A stretch of DNA of 48,886 nucleotides from an uncultured Massilimicrobiota sp. GTDB lineage: Bacteria; Bacillota_I; Bacilli_A; Erysipelotrichales; Coprobacillaceae. Below are positions 37,210 through 45,883 of this stretch, piece by piece. Numbering within the stretch: position 1 is the stretch's first letter; each line of letters starts with the position of its first letter. The notes under the pieces were generated by a model. That model worked only from the letters and a program-made list of their open reading frames with translations. It was not told the DNA's origin and did not search any database. The stretch spans positions 1-48,886 of the forward strand of contig CALUZM010000011.1 in the NCBI GenBank assembly GCA_944325245.1, written 5' to 3'. The translations under genes were made by a program, and so were the position numbers.

Positions 37210-37864
37210 TTTCGTTTTCCTCCTTATGTTTTCATTATAACATCTTTATGAATAGACTTTAAGCAAAAAAAGAAGATAAATAAAGACATATATTTTTAAT
37301 ATCAATAATTTCTTTTATGATAGGAATAAGATGAAGTAAAGCAATAATGATATATATGGATATATAAATAAAGAAAGTTGTTTGTGAATGAAACTTATCA
37401 AATGTGTTTTTAAAAGAATATCATAATGATCATATCATTTCTCATTCTTTTTAAATGGATAAGCTTAGATTTGTTATCAGTATAGAGTTCATATTTTTCT
37501 TCTGTAGATTCACTTTTAAAATAATACGCATGACCTTTTCTTAAAAACATTGAGACATTGTTGGCTTAGTTGAGTTGAATATAATCCAACATGACATTGA
37601 TGTTCTATGGAGATAAATTGATTTTTATTAAAGTTGATGTGTTTAAATAATATAAGAATTATAGATAATATAGTTTTTTGTATAAATATGGTGTTATAAT
37701 AAACGGACACCAAATGTATTTTTAATGAATAATAAATAAGATTTATCCCTAATAATACTGAGATTTAAATATAAAATCATGGAAATATATACTGTCAGGA
37801 CTTCGCAAATTCACATATTTATGATATAACAAAAGATATAGATTGGAAGAAAGGAGCAATGAGC
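37210..37864. other. 655-bp intergenic region with possible gene relics
   Basis: No intact gene is seen. The left part is the leader of the MupG-like gene. On the minus strand, 37410-37550 encodes 46 residues of protein-like composition (GHAYYFKSESTEEKYELYTD). An adjoining reading in another frame to 37713 looks similar, as if a small gene had been frameshifted. The right part is the leader of the TagO-like gene, ending in AAAGGAG. I see no riboswitch in it. Confidence 0.4.
37410..37550 (-). pseudogene. Possible remnant of a small gene, unrecognised
   Basis: A 46-codon frame (ATG at 37550, TAA at 37412-37410) encodes a polar, balanced sequence with many Lys, Glu, Ser and Tyr. This differs from the Ile/Asn/Lys/Phe noise that AT-rich DNA gives here. 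There is no ribosome site. Upstream coding continues in a different frame. It is probably the degraded C-terminus of a gene; no family is recognised. Confidence 0.3.
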
Positions 37865-39559
37865 ATGAGTTTAGAAATATGTTTATCGTTTGTTGTTACA
37901 TTCATATTAAGCTTAATTCTTGTTCCAATGGTGGGGAAAGTTTCAAAAAAACTTGGCATTATTGCTCATACAAATAAACGAACAATACATAAAGGGATTA
38001 TTGCGAGAACTGGTGGTTATGCGATTTATATGAGTTTCTTAATTGGAACAACCATCTTTTTAAAAACCGATACACAAATTAATGCCATATTAATAGGTGG
38101 GTTTATTATTTTTATAACTGGTTTTTATGATGATATTCATGATTTATCGCCAAAGTTAAAAATGCTTGGTCAAGTCATTGCAGCATTAGTTGTCATTATC
38201 TATGGAGATATTGTTTTAAAAGGTTTTAGTATTCCCTTTTTACCAGATTCGGTTTCTTATGTTTTAGCTATTATTATTACTATTTTATGGATTGTCGGTA
38301 TCAGTAATGCGATTAATCTGATTGATGGATTAGATGGATTGTGTGCAGGTATTTCTATTATTGTTTTAGTTACCATTTCTTTAACATCATTAACATATGG
38401 ACGTACTGATATATCTTCTTTATCGTTGCTTTTAGCTGGAGCAATTGGTGGCTTTCTGGTTTATAATTTCCATCCTGCATCTATTTTTTTAGGTGATTGT
38501 GGAGCTTTATTTATTGGTTTTATGATTGCAGTCATCTCCTTGTTAGGATTTGGTTATAAGAGCTCATCATTCTTTACTTTAGGTGCACCTATTGTGGTCT
38601 TGATGGTGCCTATCATGGATACATTTATTGCGATTATAAGACGTAAAGTCCATCATAAAAGCTTTAGTGAAGCTGATCGTAATCACCTTCATCATAAATT
38701 AATGTTTTCATTAGAACTTGGACAAACAAAAAGTGTTTTAATCCTATATGCTGTTACAGTTTTATTTTCATTATGTTCATATCTCTATCTGTTTGATAGA
38801 ATTGCTGCAACTATTGTGTTTATTACATTAATGATTTTATTTGAACTTTTTGTAGAAGCGACCAATATGATTGATCGTAAGTACAAACCACTTTTAACGA
38901 TTCTTAATATTTTTATTAAAAGTGAATATTTACCATCAATTAAGGATACAAAACCATATCAGAGAATTATCCAAAAAGCAAAGAAAAAATATGCGATTAT
39001 TCTGATTCTTGTGATAGGTATTGTTTTCTCTATGGTCTTTGTTTTAAACAATGATGAAAAAGAAGAGACTCAAACTCCAGTTACAATTGAATATGTTGAA
39101 TCCAGTAATGAAACAAAACTGATGAGTGATATTTATAATCAACTTGTAACAGCAATCAATCGTGGAGATAAAACAGCTGAAAGACAGTTGGTAGCTGCAT
39201 ATTTTGTAAGTGATTATTATACTTTATCTAATAAAGAAGATGGAGAGATTGGCGGTATTGATTACTTTTATGCTGATAAAAAAGATGACTTTACAGCATA
39301 TGCACAAAATGAATATTACAAGAATGTCAGTCAGTTAAAAACTTTACCGGAAGTTATCCGCTATGATATTCTTTCTAATGTGGAATCACATAAGGCATTG
39401 GCAGGATTAGAGGATTATACTTATTATGATATAGAGGTTCAAATCACTTTTAAAGAAGAAAATCCTATATTAAAGAGCCTCCAATATACAACAACAGTTA
39501 CTTTGATAGAAAAAAATCAAAAGTTTAGTGTAGTTGCGATGGAGGAATATAATGGATAA
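37865..39559 (+). CDS. MraY-family polyprenyl-phosphate GlcNAc-1-phosphate transferase (TagO/WecA-like) with extracytoplasmic C-terminal domain
   Basis: Starts wall teichoic acid or other surface glycan synthesis by moving GlcNAc-1-phosphate onto undecaprenyl phosphate. The multi-pass catalytic part (about 1-340) has GFYDDIHDLSPK near 83, NLIDGLDGLCAG near 151, FLGDCGALFIGF near 207 and the His-rich AEADRNHLHHK-like loop near 270. After it come one more membrane segment (about 378-393) and about 170 residues outside the membrane (398-564) with no recognised domain. Ordinary TagO is about 350 residues. ATG 37865 fits AAAGGAG; ATG 37859 is too close. crcB overlaps by 8 bases. Confidence 0.88.
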   Translation: MSLEICLSFVVTFILSLILVPMVGKVSKKLGIIAHTNKRTIHKGIIARTGGYAIYMSFLIGTTIFLKTDTQINAILIGGFIIFITGFYDDIHDLSPKLKMLGQVIAALVVIIYGDIVLKGFSIPFLPDSVSYVLAIIITILWIVGISNAINLIDGLDGLCAGISIIVLVTISLTSLTYGRTDISSLSLLLAGAIGGFLVYNFHPASIFLGDCGALFIGFMIAVISLLGFGYKSSSFFTLGAPIVVLMVPIMDTFIAIIRRKVHHKSFSEADRNHLHHKLMFSLELGQTKSVLILYAVTVLFSLCSYLYLFDRIAATIVFITLMILFELFVEATNMIDRKYKPLLTILNIFIKSEYLPSIKDTKPYQRIIQKAKKKYAIILILVIGIVFSMVFVLNNDEKEETQTPVTIEYVESSNETKLMSDIYNQLVTAINRGDKTAERQLVAAYFVSDYYTLSNKEDGEIGGIDYFYADKKDDFTAYAQNEYYKNVSQLKTLPEVIRYDILSNVESHKALAGLEDYTYYDIEVQITFKEENPILKSLQYTTTVTLIEKNQKFSVVAMEEYNG

Positions 39560-39932: not shown

Positions 39933-39985
39933 CTTTATTATCACTGCAGAATGGTATATAATGAGAGCGTAAAAGTTTATGAATT

Positions 39986-40207
39986 TGTTGGTTGGGAATA
40001 GAAATATTTCATGAAAATGGAAGCAGGTGTGAATCCTGAGCTGTCCCGCAGCCGTGAAAGGGAGTCAATGCAATATAGCCACTGGGTAACTGGGAAGGAG
40101 CAAAGACGATGAACTTGAGCCGGAATACATGCCAACATCTTGGAATACACTTTACGGAGTATAAAGTCGTTCTAGTTTCAATTCTAGGGCAGAGATGTCC
40201 TATTTTT
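39986..40207 (+). promoter_or_regulatory. Cobalamin riboswitch with intrinsic-terminator expression platform
   Basis: The closing P1 stem pairs TGTTGG (39986-39991) with CCAACA (40132-40137). Inside lie the B12-box-type elements AAGCAGGTGTGAATCCTG (40021-40038), CTGTCCCGCAGCCGTGAAAG, GCCACTGGGTAACTGGGAAG and AGCCGGAATACATGCC. Downstream are ACTTTA/TAAAGT and CTAG/CTAG alternatives. A terminator stem AGGGCA (40186-40191) / TGTCCT (40196-40201) with a GAGA loop and five T follows. Corrinoid binding should promote the terminator and switch off the three genes after it. A -10 TATAAT is at 39957-39962 with an indistinct -35. Confidence 0.93.
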
Positions 40208-40230
40208 GTCTAGAGAAAGAGGAGGACAAA

Positions 40231-41331
40231 ATGAAGAAAATTTTTACAAGTTTATTATTAATGACAGTGATGATTTTAGGTCAAATCGCACCTACATCAG
40301 CACTCAGCTATGATGAAAGTTATGCAGCAGCAAAGAACTTTTATTCACAAAAAGCAGAATTTGCAAGTTTTGGAGAAGTGCTTGCCTATGAAGCTATTGG
40401 TTTGGAATCTGATGATAAGGAGATTGACCAATTGCTGGCAAGTGATTATGCTTCAGAAATAGCACAAGCAGTGATTACATTAACATTACATGGAGATGAT
40501 CCAAGAAACTATCAAGGAACAAACTATGTTGAAATGTTAGAAAACTGTGTACAGGAAAATGGTGCTTTTGATAAGCAAAATACATCTACATATGCGAACT
40601 ATCAAGTTTATGGTGTTTATGCATTATATGTTGTCAATTCACCAAAATTAACTTTAGCAGCTGATTATCTAGCAAGCTTAATCGATGAAAATGGTGCTTT
40701 TGGTTCAAATTATGGACCAAGTTTAGATATTACGGGATGGGTCATTGAATCTTTAGCTTTAGTAGATTCACAGAAATATCAAGAAACAATTCAAAAATCC
40801 ATTGCTTATATCCAATCAACACAAGATGGACAGGCAGGATATCAAGATAGTTATAGTGGTGTCAATGTCAATACACAAGCTTCAGTATTATCAGGTTTGT
40901 TAACGGCAGATGCACAAGGTGTAAAAGATGGAACATATAATCAGGGAGAATATAATCCATATGATATTTTATTAAATTATCAAAATGACAATGGAAGTTT
41001 CTGGTATAGTGCAAAAGGTGAAGTTAATGATTGGGCAACTATGCAGGGAATTCAGACAGTTGGATATTATTATAATGGTTCAGTCTATGCAAAAGCACAT
41101 CAGCAGTATGCTGAATTGGTGAAAACAACACAACAAAGCCAGGAAACAACAAAACCTGTTGAAGGAAAACCACAACAGACAACTGAAGTGAAAAAAGAAG
41201 AACAGCCAAAAGAAACATCAAAGAAAGCTGATGTTGTGCAAACAGATGATACTTCATGGATTTTAGGATATGGTTTATTGTTTGTTGTGAGTGGCCTGGT
41301 TTTATTGAAAGGAAGAAAAATATTTGAATAA
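40231..41331 (+). CDS. Secreted, membrane-anchored alpha/alpha-barrel protein, likely corrinoid-binding (intrinsic-factor-like barrel)
   Basis: A 366-residue surface protein. A signal peptide (about 1-25, ending PTSALS) is followed by a helical-repeat barrel (about 30-290) of the prenyltransferase/terpene-cyclase toroid type. Repeats include SLDITGWVIESLAL, NVNTQASVLSGLL and DWATMQGIQTVGYYYNG. A Gln/Thr/Lys/Glu-rich linker (292-340) and a C-terminal membrane anchor (343-361, tail KGRKIFE) complete it. No clear LPxTG motif is present. The same fold forms the first domain of intrinsic factor and transcobalamin. Riboswitch control and neighbours point to corrinoid capture. ATG 40231 follows GAGGAGG. 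Function is inferred. Confidence 0.8.
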   Translation: MKKIFTSLLLMTVMILGQIAPTSALSYDESYAAAKNFYSQKAEFASFGEVLAYEAIGLESDDKEIDQLLASDYASEIAQAVITLTLHGDDPRNYQGTNYVEMLENCVQENGAFDKQNTSTYANYQVYGVYALYVVNSPKLTLAADYLASLIDENGAFGSNYGPSLDITGWVIESLALVDSQKYQETIQKSIAYIQSTQDGQAGYQDSYSGVNVNTQASVLSGLLTADAQGVKDGTYNQGEYNPYDILLNYQNDNGSFWYSAKGEVNDWATMQGIQTVGYYYNGSVYAKAHQQYAELVKTTQQSQETTKPVEGKPQQTTEVKKEEQPKETSKKADVVQTDDTSWILGYGLLFVVSGLVLLKGRKIFE

Positions 41332-42010
41332 AACAAAGAAGTATACAATTATATTCGTCGTTGTATGTTTTTTGATTATTGGAGGCTTTAGCCTTTATCA
41401 TGCTTTGTTTGCAGCACCAACACAGACAACACCTGTGACCTTAAGTGAAACTCAGCCACAGCAACAAGAAGAAACAAAACAACAAGAAGATACAACAGAG
41501 AATCAATCTACAGAAACTAAAAAAGAGAGTACTGCTTCAAAAGATAATTCATCAACACAAAAACAGCAATCATCATCAACAAAACAGTCCTCATCACAAC
41601 AGCCCTCATCTTCACAATCACAGTCTACATCAACAAATGAAACACAAAAAACACAGGAAGTCGAAGAAGAGGAAGTTGAAGAACCAACAGATGAAATGGT
41701 GGAATCTGTTTATGTGAAGATTACAGGTGTTGATGGCGTGATTGCAAGTGATTATGTTGAGTTTGATGAAGGAATGAGTGCATTTGATGCTTTAAAAGTT
41801 TTAACAGATAATTATGAAATATCTTTAAAATCAAGTGGTTTGAGGCAAACTGTTTATGTAAAAGCGATTAATGGTCTTTCAGAATTTGATTATGGTGGGA
41901 GGTCTGGATGGAAATATCGTGTGAATGGAACATATCCAAGTGTAGGAGCAGGTGCCTATACCCTCAAAAATGGTGATCAACTTGAGTGGATTTATTCACA
42001 AAATGGATAA
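41324..42010 (+). CDS. Membrane-anchored DUF4430 protein, likely second half of a corrinoid-capture pair
   Basis: A 228-residue protein starting at TTG 41324 (AAAGGAAG upstream). A membrane anchor (about 6-24) is followed by a long low-complexity stalk of Gln, Ser, Thr and Glu (about 30-128) that would span the wall. A DUF4430 domain fills 131-228 (VYVKITGVDGVIAS, FDALKVLTDNYEI, GGRSGWKYRVNGTYPSVGAG). DUF4430 is the C-terminal domain of animal intrinsic factor and transcobalamin, where it closes over the corrin ring. Here it is a separate protein beside its barrel partner. It overlaps both neighbours by 8 bases. Confidence 0.85.
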   Translation: MNKTKKYTIIFVVVCFLIIGGFSLYHALFAAPTQTTPVTLSETQPQQQEETKQQEDTTENQSTETKKESTASKDNSSTQKQQSSSTKQSSSQQPSSSQSQSTSTNETQKTQEVEEEEVEEPTDEMVESVYVKITGVDGVIASDYVEFDEGMSAFDALKVLTDNYEISLKSSGLRQTVYVKAINGLSEFDYGGRSGWKYRVNGTYPSVGAGAYTLKNGDQLEWIYSQNG

Positions 42011-42521
42011 AGTTAAGGAAATCAGTTTAATAGGGATATTGGCTGCAGTTAATATTGCATCTCGTATAGCGCTGCAGTCATTACCTAATATCAAACCCGT
42101 CACATCGATTATTATCATTTCTGTCATGCTTTTTGGTTTAGGCTTTGGCATTAAGCTGACACTTGTGACAACACTTGTATCGAATATGTATTTAGGTATG
42201 GGTATTTGGACTTTTTTTCAAATATTGGCCTGGATTGTGATTTGTTTGTTGACACAATGTTTAATGGATTTTTTTAAGAGAATACATAAACAACCCCATC
42301 TTCTTGTGATGGCAGTATTTGCTTTTTTGATGGGTTACATATTTGGGTTTATTGTCTCTTTAGATAAATTAATGATTGGTGGACCCTCTTTATTTATTGT
42401 TTATTATTTATCTGGTCTATTATTTGATACTTTTCATGCGGTAGGAAATTTCTTTTTTTATCTTGTTGCAGCTCCAATTCTTATGAAAATTTTTATGAAA
42501 AATAAAAGTATTGTAATTTGA
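42003..42521 (+). CDS. ECF transporter S component, predicted cobalamin/corrinoid-specific
   Basis: A 172-residue integral membrane protein with five to six hydrophobic segments. The N-terminal EISLIGILAAVNIASRIALQ is typical of S components that dock on EcfT through small residues. Similar S components (CbrT-like) import cobalamin. The riboswitch upstream and the two surface proteins argue for a corrinoid substrate. The shared EcfA/EcfA'/EcfT module is not in the window, as usual for group II ECF systems. The start at 42003 overlaps the DUF4430 stop by 8 bases. Confidence 0.82.
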   Translation: MDKVKEISLIGILAAVNIASRIALQSLPNIKPVTSIIIISVMLFGLGFGIKLTLVTTLVSNMYLGMGIWTFFQILAWIVICLLTQCLMDFFKRIHKQPHLLVMAVFAFLMGYIFGFIVSLDKLMIGGPSLFIVYYLSGLLFDTFHAVGNFFFYLVAAPILMKIFMKNKSIVI

Positions 42522-42577: not shown

Positions 42578-42799
42578 ATGATTTTAAATATTTTATTGAT
42601 TCTTGTTTCAATTGCTCTTATTGTTGTATGCCTATTACAAAGTGGAAAATCTGATGGTGTTGTGAATGCTTTGACTGGTCAAAGCTCAAACCTATTTGCT
42701 CATCAAAAAGAAAGAGGAGCTGATTTGGTTTTAACACGTATAACTGTTGGACTTGCAATTGCATTTTTTGTTCTTGCAATCGTAATTAGAATGGGTTAA
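42578..42799 (+). CDS. secG: Preprotein translocase subunit SecG
   Basis: A 73-residue two-helix subunit of the SecYEG channel. Hydrophobic segments (about 2-20 and 50-71) flank the conserved loop LLQSGKSDGVVNALTGQSSN. The secG-rnr-smpB-ssrA order is common in Firmicutes. AAAGGAGG precedes the ATG. Confidence 0.93.
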   Translation: MILNILLILVSIALIVVCLLQSGKSDGVVNALTGQSSNLFAHQKERGADLVLTRITVGLAIAFFVLAIVIRMG

Positions 42800-42804
42800 T
42801 CAGT

Positions 42805-42830
42805 AGGGCACTTTGAGGTGTCCTCTTTTT
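42805..42830 (+). terminator. Terminator or attenuator between secG and rnr
   Basis: AGGGCAC (42805-42811) / GTGTCCT (42818-42824) with one wobble pair, then CTTTTT. It lies only 30 bases before rnr, so some read-through is likely needed for rnr-smpB. Confidence 0.65.
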
Positions 42831-42859
42831 ATTAATAGAATAAATAGGAGGTGATAAAG

Positions 42860-45064
42860 TTGAAAGAAGAGATATTGGAACTGTTGGCTGATCAAACATA
42901 TACAAGAAGAAAGATTCAGGAGTTAGCTGAACATTTTCATATGACAGAAACACAGGATTATGTTTCATTTATTAAGTTAATTAATGAAATGGAAGATGAA
43001 GGATTAATTATAAGAAGTCGTATCAATGATTATTATTTAATTAATCAACTTCAATACTACAAAGGTGTTTTAGAATTAAATAAACGTGGTTTTGGTTTTG
43101 TGAAGGTTGATGAAGATAGAGAATTTTATATTCATGATTCTAATATGAAAGATGCACTTCATAATGATACAGTCTTAATAGAAAAAATCAAATCTCGTGG
43201 ACAACGTGAAGAAGGGCGTGTTGTACGTGTTTTAAAGCGTGGTAAACTTCGTTATGTTGGAGAAGTCAAACGTGGAAGAAAAGACTATCTTGTCAAAGCA
43301 GATGACCAAAAATTTGATAAACCAATTATTGTTGATGCAGCACATATGCATGGAGCTATGCCTGGGCATAAGGTTGTTGTAGAAATTAAGACTTTTAAAC
43401 CACAAATTAAAGGTGATATTGTTAAAATTATAGGACATCGTAATGATCCTGGTATAGATATTTTATCAATTGTTCATGCCCATGATGTGGATATAGAATT
43501 TCCTAAAGAAGTCTATGAGCAGATAGAAAATATATCGGATGAAATTGATCCAAGTGATATTGAAAATCGTGTAGATTTAAGAAGTGAGCTGATTGTCACA
43601 ATTGATGGTGATGATGCTAAGGATTTAGATGATGCAATTTCTTTAAAGAAATTAGATAATGGACATTATCAGCTAGGAGTTCATATTGCTGATGTTTCTT
43701 ATTATGTGACAGAAGGTTCACCTTTAGATAAGGAAGCGATTAAAAGAGGAACATCTATTTATCTGGTTGATCGTGTTATTCCTATGTTACCACATAAATT
43801 ATCTAATGGAATATGTTCATTAAATCCCAATACGGATCGATATACAATCAGTTGTATTATGGAAATCAATAAGCAGGGTGAAGTTGTCAATCATGATATT
43901 TTACCGACAGTGATTCATTCTTCTTATCGTATGACATATAATAATGTGAATAAGATTTTAGATGGTGATCAAAAATTACAGCAGGAATATGCGCCAGCTG
44001 TGCCGCTGTTCTTTTTAATGCAGGAATTAGCCACATTATTAAGAAAAGTCAGAGATGAACGTGGAGCTATAGATTTTGATGTTGATGAAGCCAAGGTTCT
44101 TGTTGATAAACAAGGAAAACCAACGGATGTTGTTTTAAGAAAACGAGGAGCTTCTGATAAAATTATTGAAGAGTTTATGTTGAAAGCCAATGAAACAGTA
44201 GCTCAACATTTTAAATGGATGGATTTGCCATTTATCTATCGTGTTCATGAACAGCCAAAGATTAAGAAATTACAACAATTTGTGAATATTGTAAAACCAT
44301 TAGGATATACGATTAAAGGATCTCTAGAACATGTTTATCCAAATGAATTAAATGCCATTATTCATGCGTCTAAGGGAACAGATGAGCACGTGATTGTTTC
44401 AACATTATTATTAAGATGTATGCAAAAAGCAAGATATGATGCACAATGCTTAGGACATTTTGGTTTAGCAGATGAATATTATACACATTTTACTTCACCA
44501 ATACGTCGTTATCCTGATTTATTAGGACATCGTTTAATTAGAACATTCTTATTTAAGCAGGACTATAAACAGACAGCTCATTTTGAAGAAGTGATTCCAG
44601 AATTAGCAGAGCAATCATCATATCGTGAGAGAGAAGCTATTGATATTGAAAGAGAAGTTACAGATATGAAGATGGCTGAGTATATGTCTGAACATATTGG
44701 GGAAGAATTTGAAGGTATGATTTCTTCTATTACTTCTTTTGGTTTCTTTGTTGAACTTCCAAATACTATTGATGGTTTGGTACATATCACAGATTTAACA
44801 GATGATTATTATCATTATGATGAAAAACAAATGATTCTCGTTGGTGAAAGAACAGGAAGAATCTTTAAATTATCTGATAAAGTGAAAGTTAGAGTTGTAG
44901 CCTGTGATAAAAAAGAAAGAACAATTGATTTTGAAGTTGTTGGAATGGAATCAAGAAAAAAGAAATCAAAAATTGTGAAAATAAATGATAGAAAAGTAAA
45001 GACAAAACGTACAAAAAAGGGTAAAATAAATAAGTCTCATAGAAAGATGAGAAGACGTAAATAG
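42860..45064 (+). CDS. rnr: Ribonuclease R
   Basis: Processive 3'-5' exoribonuclease that degrades structured RNA and works with tmRNA-SmpB on stalled mRNAs. A winged-helix start (about 1-60) and two cold-shock-type domains (about 65-220) precede the RNB domain. RNB carries the metal-binding [15 protein letters not shown] near residues 249-263 and [16 protein letters not shown] near 545. An S1 domain (about 620-705) and a Lys/Arg-rich tail follow. Length is 734. The TTG at 42860 is chosen because the GTG at 42851 is itself part of the AGGAGGTG ribosome site. Confidence 0.95.
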
Positions 45065-45080
45065 AAAGGAAGTGATATGC

Positions 45081-45527
45081 ATGAAAGTTGTCACTCAAAA
45101 TAAAAAAGCATTTCATGATTACTTTATTTTAGATACTTATGAAGCTGGAATTGAGTTAAAAGGGACAGAAATTAAATCAGTACGTCTTGGACATGTCAAT
45201 TTAAAAGATGCTTTTATTCGTTTTAAGAATAATGAAGCTTTTATTGAAAACATGCATATCGCTCCTTATGAACAAGGAAATATCTTTAATCATCAACCAC
45301 TTCGTAATAGAAAGCTATTGCTTCATAAAAAGCAAATTAAAAAGCTACAAAGAGAAGTGAAAGAAAATGGTTTAACAGTAGTCCCTACAAAATTATATTT
45401 TAATACTTCTAAATTAAAAGTAGAGATTGCTTTAGCAAGAGGTAAGAAATTATATGATAAACGTCAGGATCTTAAAGCTAAAGATGCAAAAAGAGACATG
45501 GAAAGAGCATTAAAAAATGCTTACTAA
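45081..45527 (+). CDS. smpB: SsrA-binding protein SmpB
   Basis: A 148-residue beta-barrel that binds the tRNA-like part of tmRNA and brings it to stalled ribosomes. The start [20 protein letters not shown] and the stretch [16 protein letters not shown] are diagnostic. The C-terminal basic tail ([11 protein letters not shown]-like, here [20 protein letters not shown]) enters the mRNA channel. ATG 45081 fits AAAGGAAG; the GTG at 45072 overlaps it. Its stop is one base from the 5' end of ssrA. Confidence 0.97.
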
Positions 45528-45528
45528 T

Positions 45529-45883
45529 GGGGGCGTCTTGGATTCGACAGGGGTCAGTTTGAATGGAATGGCAGCCGTGGGCATACGTTAATTGCAAACA
45601 AAAAATATCTGGAAACAGACAACAATTATCTTTCGCTTGCTAGTCGACGTTAGACTTTAGCGAATATCAGCCTATAGCATACCTATGGCTATAGAACTGG
45701 TAACATATCTAATAGGTTAAGGGTATAAAGATTCTGGATTTATACCACGAAAATGTACAGAATCGCTAAGTGAAAGACTGCTTGTGGATCATAGCTTAGT
45801 TAAATTCATTCGACAAGATAAGCTGTAGAAGTTTCATATGGGACGGCTTTTGGACAGGGGTTCGATTCCCCTCGCCTCCACCA
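45529..45883 (+). ncRNA. ssrA: tmRNA (transfer-messenger RNA)
   Basis: Rescues stalled ribosomes and tags the nascent chain. The acceptor stem pairs GGGGGCG (45529-45535) with CGCCTCC before A and CCA (end 45883). The 5' CTTGGATTCGACAGGGG and the 3' T-arm GGGTTCGATTCCCC are conserved, and pseudoknot sequence lies between. The resume codon GCA (45594-45596) follows TTAATT. The frame then gives the tag ANKKYLETDNNYLSLASRR and stops at TAG 45651-45653, inside a TTCGCT/AGCGAA stem as expected for helix 5. The tag is longer than most and lacks the usual Ala-Ala end. Length is 355 nt. Confidence 0.96.

Follow-up and report, generated by a model that had tools for sequence, protein, structure and literature searches.

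A riboswitch-preceded operon for probable surface capture and import of vitamin B12 in an uncultured Massilimicrobiota bacterium

The locus described here raises the question of how a bacterium that, judging from its gene content, apparently lacks the capacity to make vitamin B12 could catch this vitamin outside its membrane and bring it into the cell. The window, a stretch of 48,886 bases on contig C11 of an uncultured Massilimicrobiota genome (2.47 Mb, 97% complete), contains on its forward strand an RF00174 cobalamin riboswitch, a terminator and the genes for a secreted alpha/alpha toroid protein, a DUF4430 protein and an S component of an energy-coupling factor (ECF) transporter, in this order and with both gene-gene overlaps measuring exactly 8 bases. 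We read these genes as an operon for B12 capture and import, with a probability of about 0.78. Catching of the vitamin at the cell surface, much as animals do in the gut, is probable. An earlier reading of the letters alone (the sequence-only reading) had described a riboswitch and terminator before three genes overlapping by 8 bases each, and this observation is confirmed here by the covariance model match, the hairpin and the overlaps. The features of the operon are as follows.

39972–40150, + strand: cobalamin riboswitch aptamer (RF00174 over the full length of the model at 92.9 bits; gathering score 31.5; E = 7e-22)
40185–40212, + strand: intrinsic terminator of the expression platform, with a 7-bp stem, a 4-nt loop and a T run (TAGGGCA-GAGA-TGTCCTA plus TTTTTGTC)
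40231–41331, + strand: gene 1, secreted alpha/alpha toroid protein of 366 aa with a signal peptide and a probable C-terminal sorting signal (ATG start; PF00432, AlphaFold2, Foldseek)
40303–41124, + strand: alpha/alpha toroid domain of gene 1, the aligned and modelled region (alignments, AlphaFold2, hhalign)
41239–41319, + strand: probable sortase-B-type sorting signal of gene 1 (TIGR03063; class B sortase in the genome)
41324–42010, + strand: gene 2, membrane-anchored DUF4430 protein of 228 aa (TTG start, kept in orthologues)
41777–41998, + strand: DUF4430 domain of gene 2, predicted to be of the transcobalamin-type beta-grasp (PF14478, profile, AlphaFold2 and Foldseek)
42003–42521, + strand: gene 3, predicted ECF S component of the CbrT (vitamin B12) family (ATG start; phmmer and profile matches to 6FNP)

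Regulation, importer and B12 economy

The aptamer is the sole RF00174 match in the genome. A terminator hairpin precedes the first gene in most relatives inspected, with changed bases and retained pairing (stems TAGGACG/CGTCCTA in G027, AACTGGG/CCCAGTT in G016 and TAGGA/TCCTA in G033). Folded alone, positions 40125–40225 perform no better than shuffled sequences, and the support for the terminator is thus comparative. Together, the RF00174 match and the conserved terminator strongly support the predicted control by B12, as the sequence-only reading had proposed.

The gene 3 product, previously described as S-component-like, returned a single real match in a phmmer search of the PDB, 6FNP chain A (E = 7.1e-25, 56 of 156 aligned residues identical, 36%), and a profile of 33 S components reached the same entry with E = 2.4e-30; its S-component match in Pfam was weak. 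6FNP is ECF-CbrT of Lactobacillus delbrueckii, for which ATP-driven import of cobalamin and cobinamide is demonstrated (PMC5997447). The assignment of gene 3 to the CbrT family of vitamin B12 S components is therefore strongly supported by similarity. Both systems share, in addition to this S component, the lack of BtuC and the use of a shared ECF module, whereas the L. delbrueckii gene is located in the arrangement nrdJ-cbrS-cbrT-pduO and, unlike in the window, neither a riboswitch nor an extracellular capture protein is mentioned in the available part of that paper (PMC5997447).

Two ECF modules are encoded in the genome: EcfA1-EcfA2-EcfT on contig C33, and a further set on contig C70. Its B12 users comprise one MetH and one B12-radical-SAM protein. 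PF01032 (FecCD), which is present in 13 of 14 control genomes, was not found in the genome; BtuC is therefore absent as well, and import via BtuFCD was rejected as a candidate route, the FecCD-family permease being absent. An ECF route in place of a BtuF-type one, as put forward by the sequence-only reading, agrees with a genome that has MetH, CbrT and an ECF module and lacks BtuC. Furthermore, neither CbiC nor CobS was found in the genome. With MetH present and BtuC, CbiC and CobS absent, the bacterium therefore looks like a B12 auxotroph that imports complete cobamides, most likely through CbrT. The same machinery might instead take up mainly another corrinoid, either cobinamide or another cobamide, as CbrT also takes cobinamide (PMC5997447) and several corrinoids are sensed by cobalamin riboswitches (PMC9600662). 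However, CobS, which is needed to complete cobinamide, is absent, so that complete cobamides would be more useful to the cell, and MetH is present; we consider another main ligand very unlikely.

The two surface proteins

The gene 2 product matches PF14478 with 71.4 bits (cut-off 23.8) and consists of an N-terminal membrane segment, a low-complexity stalk of ~95 residues rich in Gln, Ser, Thr and Glu, and the DUF4430 domain, in agreement with the architecture recognized by the sequence-only reading. Behind its TTG start codon, the beginning MNKTKKYT is kept by orthologues. A DUF4430 profile built from 35 relatives matched PDB sequences of the uncharacterised protein 3u7z (1.7e-6), haptocorrin (8e-4) and transcobalamin-2 (0.026). 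In a Foldseek search with the AlphaFold2 model of the domain (pLDDT 91.5), each of the 19 top-ranked PDB matches (E 2e-5 to 4e-4) was either 3u7z or one of the animal carriers transcobalamin, haptocorrin and intrinsic factor, followed by SUMO as the next fold (E 1e-2), and TM-scores by query against the animal proteins were 0.71–0.78. The secondary structure of the model has strands at positions 48–51 and 58–62 after a helix at positions 33–43. A beta-hairpin insert after the helix is a feature of the transcobalamin-like soluble-ligand-binding beta-grasp (SLBB) proteins of Burroughs et al. (2007; PMC1796856). The profile matches and the model strongly support the prediction that the gene 2 domain is a transcobalamin-type beta domain, as had been claimed before.

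The toroid protein scores 25.7 bits against PF00432, just below the cut-off of 26.5, and its AlphaFold2 model is an all-helical fold of the toroid type (pLDDT 92.8, pTM 0.91). Single-sequence phmmer searches of the PDB with either surface protein of the window, the toroid or the DUF4430 protein, gave no match. Foldseek placed squalene-hopene and drimenyl diphosphate cyclases and prenyltransferase beta subunits nearest to the toroid among solved folds. None of 24 toroids contains the cyclase motif DxDD, and in no alignment column is Cys or His conserved in more than 15 of the 24; the catalytic DxDD or conserved Cys/His zinc ligands that would mark a terpene cyclase or prenyltransferase were thus not found, and hence the toroid shows no signs of cyclase or prenyltransferase catalysis. 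The close relatives identified by toroid similarity (narrow alignment, 8 loci) belong to Massilimicrobiota, Longibaculum and Stoquefichus, which places the window in this group.

The C-terminus of the toroid protein consists of VVQTDD, a hydrophobic stretch and KGRK, and is weakly matched by TIGR03656 and TIGR03063. The latter model scores 20.4 bits, above its cut-off, on the congeneric orthologue L059, and one further relative passes the LPXTG model. The single sortase encoded in the genome is of class B (TIGR03064, 166 bits). The C-terminus is thus more likely to be a signal for sorting by sortase B than a simple membrane anchor; of the secreted, membrane-anchored barrel in the sequence-only reading, the secreted toroid stands and the plain anchor probably does not.

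Conservation, fusions and partner exchange among relatives

Within the family (43 genomes with 39 DUF4430 loci, partners typed by domain-limited profiles), DUF4430 was identified in 38 of the 43 genomes, almost always as a single copy. The partner encoded at these loci is a toroid in 25 cases, a beta-propeller in seven and a divergent helical protein in two (G015, G016), and five loci have none, one of them at a contig break. The family genomes contain 28 cobalamin riboswitches, distributed over 27 genomes, and 27 of the 28 are located upstream of the system, with that of G004 inferred across a contig break. The exception, in G024:C26 (L080:4963-5689), lies directly before a lone distant S component, and the same genome has a short DUF4430 gene with a separate riboswitch on another contig. 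The operons follow two plans. One, that of the window, is toroid-DUF4430-S; the other, with dedicated EcfT and EcfA genes, is DUF4430-EcfT-EcfA(double)-S-partner, and its last gene encodes either a toroid or a beta-propeller of the PQQ/BamB type. Gene order is conserved across many genera of the family, and DUF4430-CbrT is the most constant adjacent gene pair, with a variable third partner. G009, which has no recognisable riboswitch, contains the operon metH-toroid-DUF4430-S, and L105 the cluster metF-metH-toroid.

A wider set of 344 genomes of the phylum contains 51 DUF4430 sites that do not belong to the family. Of these, 37 lie no more than 5 kb downstream of an RF00174 match with which they share the strand (~0.2% would be expected from random placement) and 24 adjoin a CbrT-family S component. 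The sequence-only reading had suggested counting riboswitches and S components beside such genes, and these counts support its reading. In several families, DUF4430 and toroid are fused in a single lipoprotein; behind its gene come a further short one, which is often DUF4430-like, and then CbrT. The halves of these chains align with the split proteins in hhalign (toroid half E = 1e-15, DUF4430 half 2e-8), and a riboswitch is located 55–121 nt upstream of the start of all 13 aligned fused genes. The domain order in the fused chains is DUF4430 then toroid, the reverse of that in the animal carriers. These fusions are the best evidence, from sequence comparison, that the two window proteins may work together. 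They also support the sequence-only reading's proposal of a split version of the carriers, as single-chain forms occur in riboswitch-CbrT operons of other Bacilli. Apart from the weak Pfam score of the toroid, nothing was found that speaks for a chance neighbourhood of unrelated surface genes, a reading that is contradicted by conservation (the 8-base overlaps, the order kept across many genera, the fusions and the riboswitch linkage) and which we regard as practically negligible.

Some relatives deviate in their partner proteins. In the DUF4430-EcfT-EcfA-S operons of L064, L075, L076, L079, L090, L097 and L098, the toroid is replaced by a propeller; several of these propeller proteins carry a Gram-positive anchor motif, and the propeller chain of L075 has an N-terminal stretch of its own that reads like a DUF4430 domain. 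BtuG is a beta-propeller. A BtuG-type identity of the propellers has no sequence support; their PDB matches are of the PQQ/BamB type and include no BtuG. In G015 and G016 (L071:2380-3672, L072:5076-6350), a helical protein encoded between riboswitch and DUF4430 is unmatched by both toroid and propeller profiles; by eye it resembles a strongly diverged toroid and has a comparable sorting signal. In L091:177-5221 (G035:C101), a short DUF4430 gene and an S component form a pair that has no riboswitch and is surrounded by corrinoid methyltransferase genes (URO-D, RACo activator, DUF1638); this pair may serve another corrinoid or substrate. L140:1058-2092 (G223:C61) encodes a 344-aa protein of three tandem DUF4430 domains; a cobalamin riboswitch lies ~240 nt 5' of it, and an S component is absent from its neighbourhood.

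Directly 3' of the operon in the window, positions 42578–45883 contain the ordinary set secG, rnr, smpB and ssrA (tmRNA, RF00023). Positions 37859–39559 encode a TagO/MraY-like glycosyltransferase (PF00953) with an additional membrane segment and a C-terminal domain of ~170 residues that matches no Pfam family.

Proposed capture and hand-over, and relation to known B12 carriers

We hypothesize that under corrinoid scarcity the riboswitch would let transcription through the terminator, yielding a wall-attached toroid, a membrane-tethered beta domain on a long stalk and the CbrT S component. The toroid would probably be attached to the wall by the single class B sortase of the genome. The beta domain, alone or with the toroid, would capture cobalamin outside the membrane and hand it to CbrT, for which the shared EcfA-EcfA'-EcfT module, encoded at another site, would supply the power, and the imported cargo would serve MetH. 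The likeliest chemistry would be that of human transcobalamin, in which two separate domains close over one corrinoid. When the alpha and beta domains of human transcobalamin were expressed apart, they assembled only with cobalamin (PMC5599065), and a clamp of two chains therefore has a direct precedent. In its most specific form, this reading holds that Bacilli possess a modular extracellular B12-capture layer for ECF-CbrT, with a constant beta domain and an exchangeable lid, toroid or propeller, separate or fused, and that the window pair closes over one cobalamin between wall and membrane, as a two-anchor form of intrinsic factor that would also be an extant relative of whatever gave rise to the animal carriers. 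We put this form forward tentatively, at somewhat less than even odds.

Several results weigh against the reading of the operon as one for B12 capture and import. Transcobalamin was not among the top 50 Foldseek matches of the toroid model, toroid profiles gave no match to transcobalamin toroids among PDB sequences, and the profile of the fused chains did not reach them either; of the fold match to the cobalamin-binding barrel expected by the sequence-only reading, the general fold is thus right and the specific likeness was not found. The TIGR03063 score of the window toroid, 16.6 bits, is below the curated cut-off of 18.15. A recognisable riboswitch is missing at 12 of the 39 family loci, most of them rescanned at relaxed thresholds. 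Furthermore, DUF4430 and S occur without a toroid in G006 (with riboswitch), G017 and G035:C101, and as some relatives have no toroid or a propeller in its stead, the toroid is not indispensable.

These toroid-less pairs, one of them in a corrinoid methyltransferase cluster, and the lack of a specific transcobalamin match would suit a complete capture and uptake unit formed by DUF4430 and CbrT, with the toroid or propeller acting otherwise, in corrinoid stripping, in docking to a B12-binding protein of host or microbial origin, or in binding of wall glycan. Yet the toroid gene overlaps the DUF4430 gene by 8 bases under a common riboswitch, both are fused elsewhere, and the 24 toroids have no enzymatic motif (no DxDD, and Cys or His columns in at most 15); such a division of labour appears distinctly unlikely.

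The exchange of toroid and propeller is compatible with a relay no less than with a clamp, and counts in favour of the former. In a relay, corrinoid would be bound independently by the outer protein in the wall, be it toroid or propeller, and by the DUF4430 protein in the membrane, and the cargo would pass from wall to membrane to CbrT, like heme in the Isd system. In the SrtB/IsdC heme relay of Gram-positive bacteria, a wall-embedded sortase-B substrate passes a tetrapyrrole to a membrane importer. The window toroid resembles it in its sortase-B-type signal, with the weak TIGR03656 and TIGR03063 matches; unlike that relay, the window system would import through an ECF transporter and not through an ABC importer of the FecCD type, and a NEAT domain was not found in it. 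The relay also agrees with the constancy of the DUF4430-CbrT pair beside a variable third partner, the DUF4430-S pairs without toroid, the separate short gene behind the fused chains (DUF4430-like in several), the position of the sorting signal on the outer partner, and the binding of cobalamin by the transcobalamin beta domain alone (PMC5599065). On the other hand, the existence of DUF4430-toroid fusions in nature, like the animal carriers, shows that one ligand can be shared by both domain types (PMC1796856), and the separately expressed human domains assemble only with cobalamin. We therefore hold the relay to be possible, though on the unlikely side. As a whole, the interpretation offered by the sequence-only reading is partly supported: riboswitch control, the transcobalamin-type beta domain, the CbrT-family S component and the need for B12 in a genome without BtuC have strong support, whereas corrin binding by the toroid, the sharing of one ligand and an opening and closing of the two halves are proposals.

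Burroughs, Balaji, Iyer and Aravind (2007; PMC1796856) defined the transcobalamin-like SLBB clade and described SLBB/DUF4430 proteins of low-GC Gram-positive bacteria, often as toroid fusions in either order and once as a beta-propeller fusion, with CbiO/CbiQ and sometimes a second paralogous SLBB gene as neighbours. They predicted a role in scavenging B12, and they proposed such bacteria as the source from which animals obtained transcobalamin and intrinsic factor. The window system falls within this prediction, but differs in having the domains in separate overlapping genes, CbrT with a shared ECF module, and a sortase-type signal on the toroid; that paper mentions no riboswitch and, in the available part, names no S component. 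No experiment on bacterial SLBB/DUF4430 proteins of this kind was found in the literature searched. The present analysis adds that the cobalamin riboswitch is the regular regulator and that the S component is CbrT, and it further adds a form split completely over two anchors, the signal of the sortase-B type and the systematic swapping of partners.

The animal carriers intrinsic factor, transcobalamin and haptocorrin have in common with the window system the combination of toroid and beta-grasp, with the DUF4430 model matching their beta domains first, and their domain order, toroid then beta, equals the gene order of the window. In contrast to their single chain, the window has two chains with two anchors and a toroid that is not specifically transcobalamin-like among solved folds, and whereas they deliver to an endocytic receptor, the window system would deliver to an ECF transporter. 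BtuG of Bacteroides likewise captures B12 at the surface ahead of a transporter (PMC6143338), as proposed for the window, but BtuG proteins are lipoproteins of an outer-membrane system.

According to a 2019 survey, identifying the B12 transport systems of many gut genomes is an open problem (PMC6593275). The operon provides a compact testable case, with regulation, capture proteins and importer in one place. ECF transporters are usually described without a separate binding protein; if the reading given here is true, they would gain an extracellular capture partner. As split and fused toroid/beta forms still occur in B12 operons, these bacteria may also provide living relatives with which the origin of intrinsic factor and transcobalamin could be tested.

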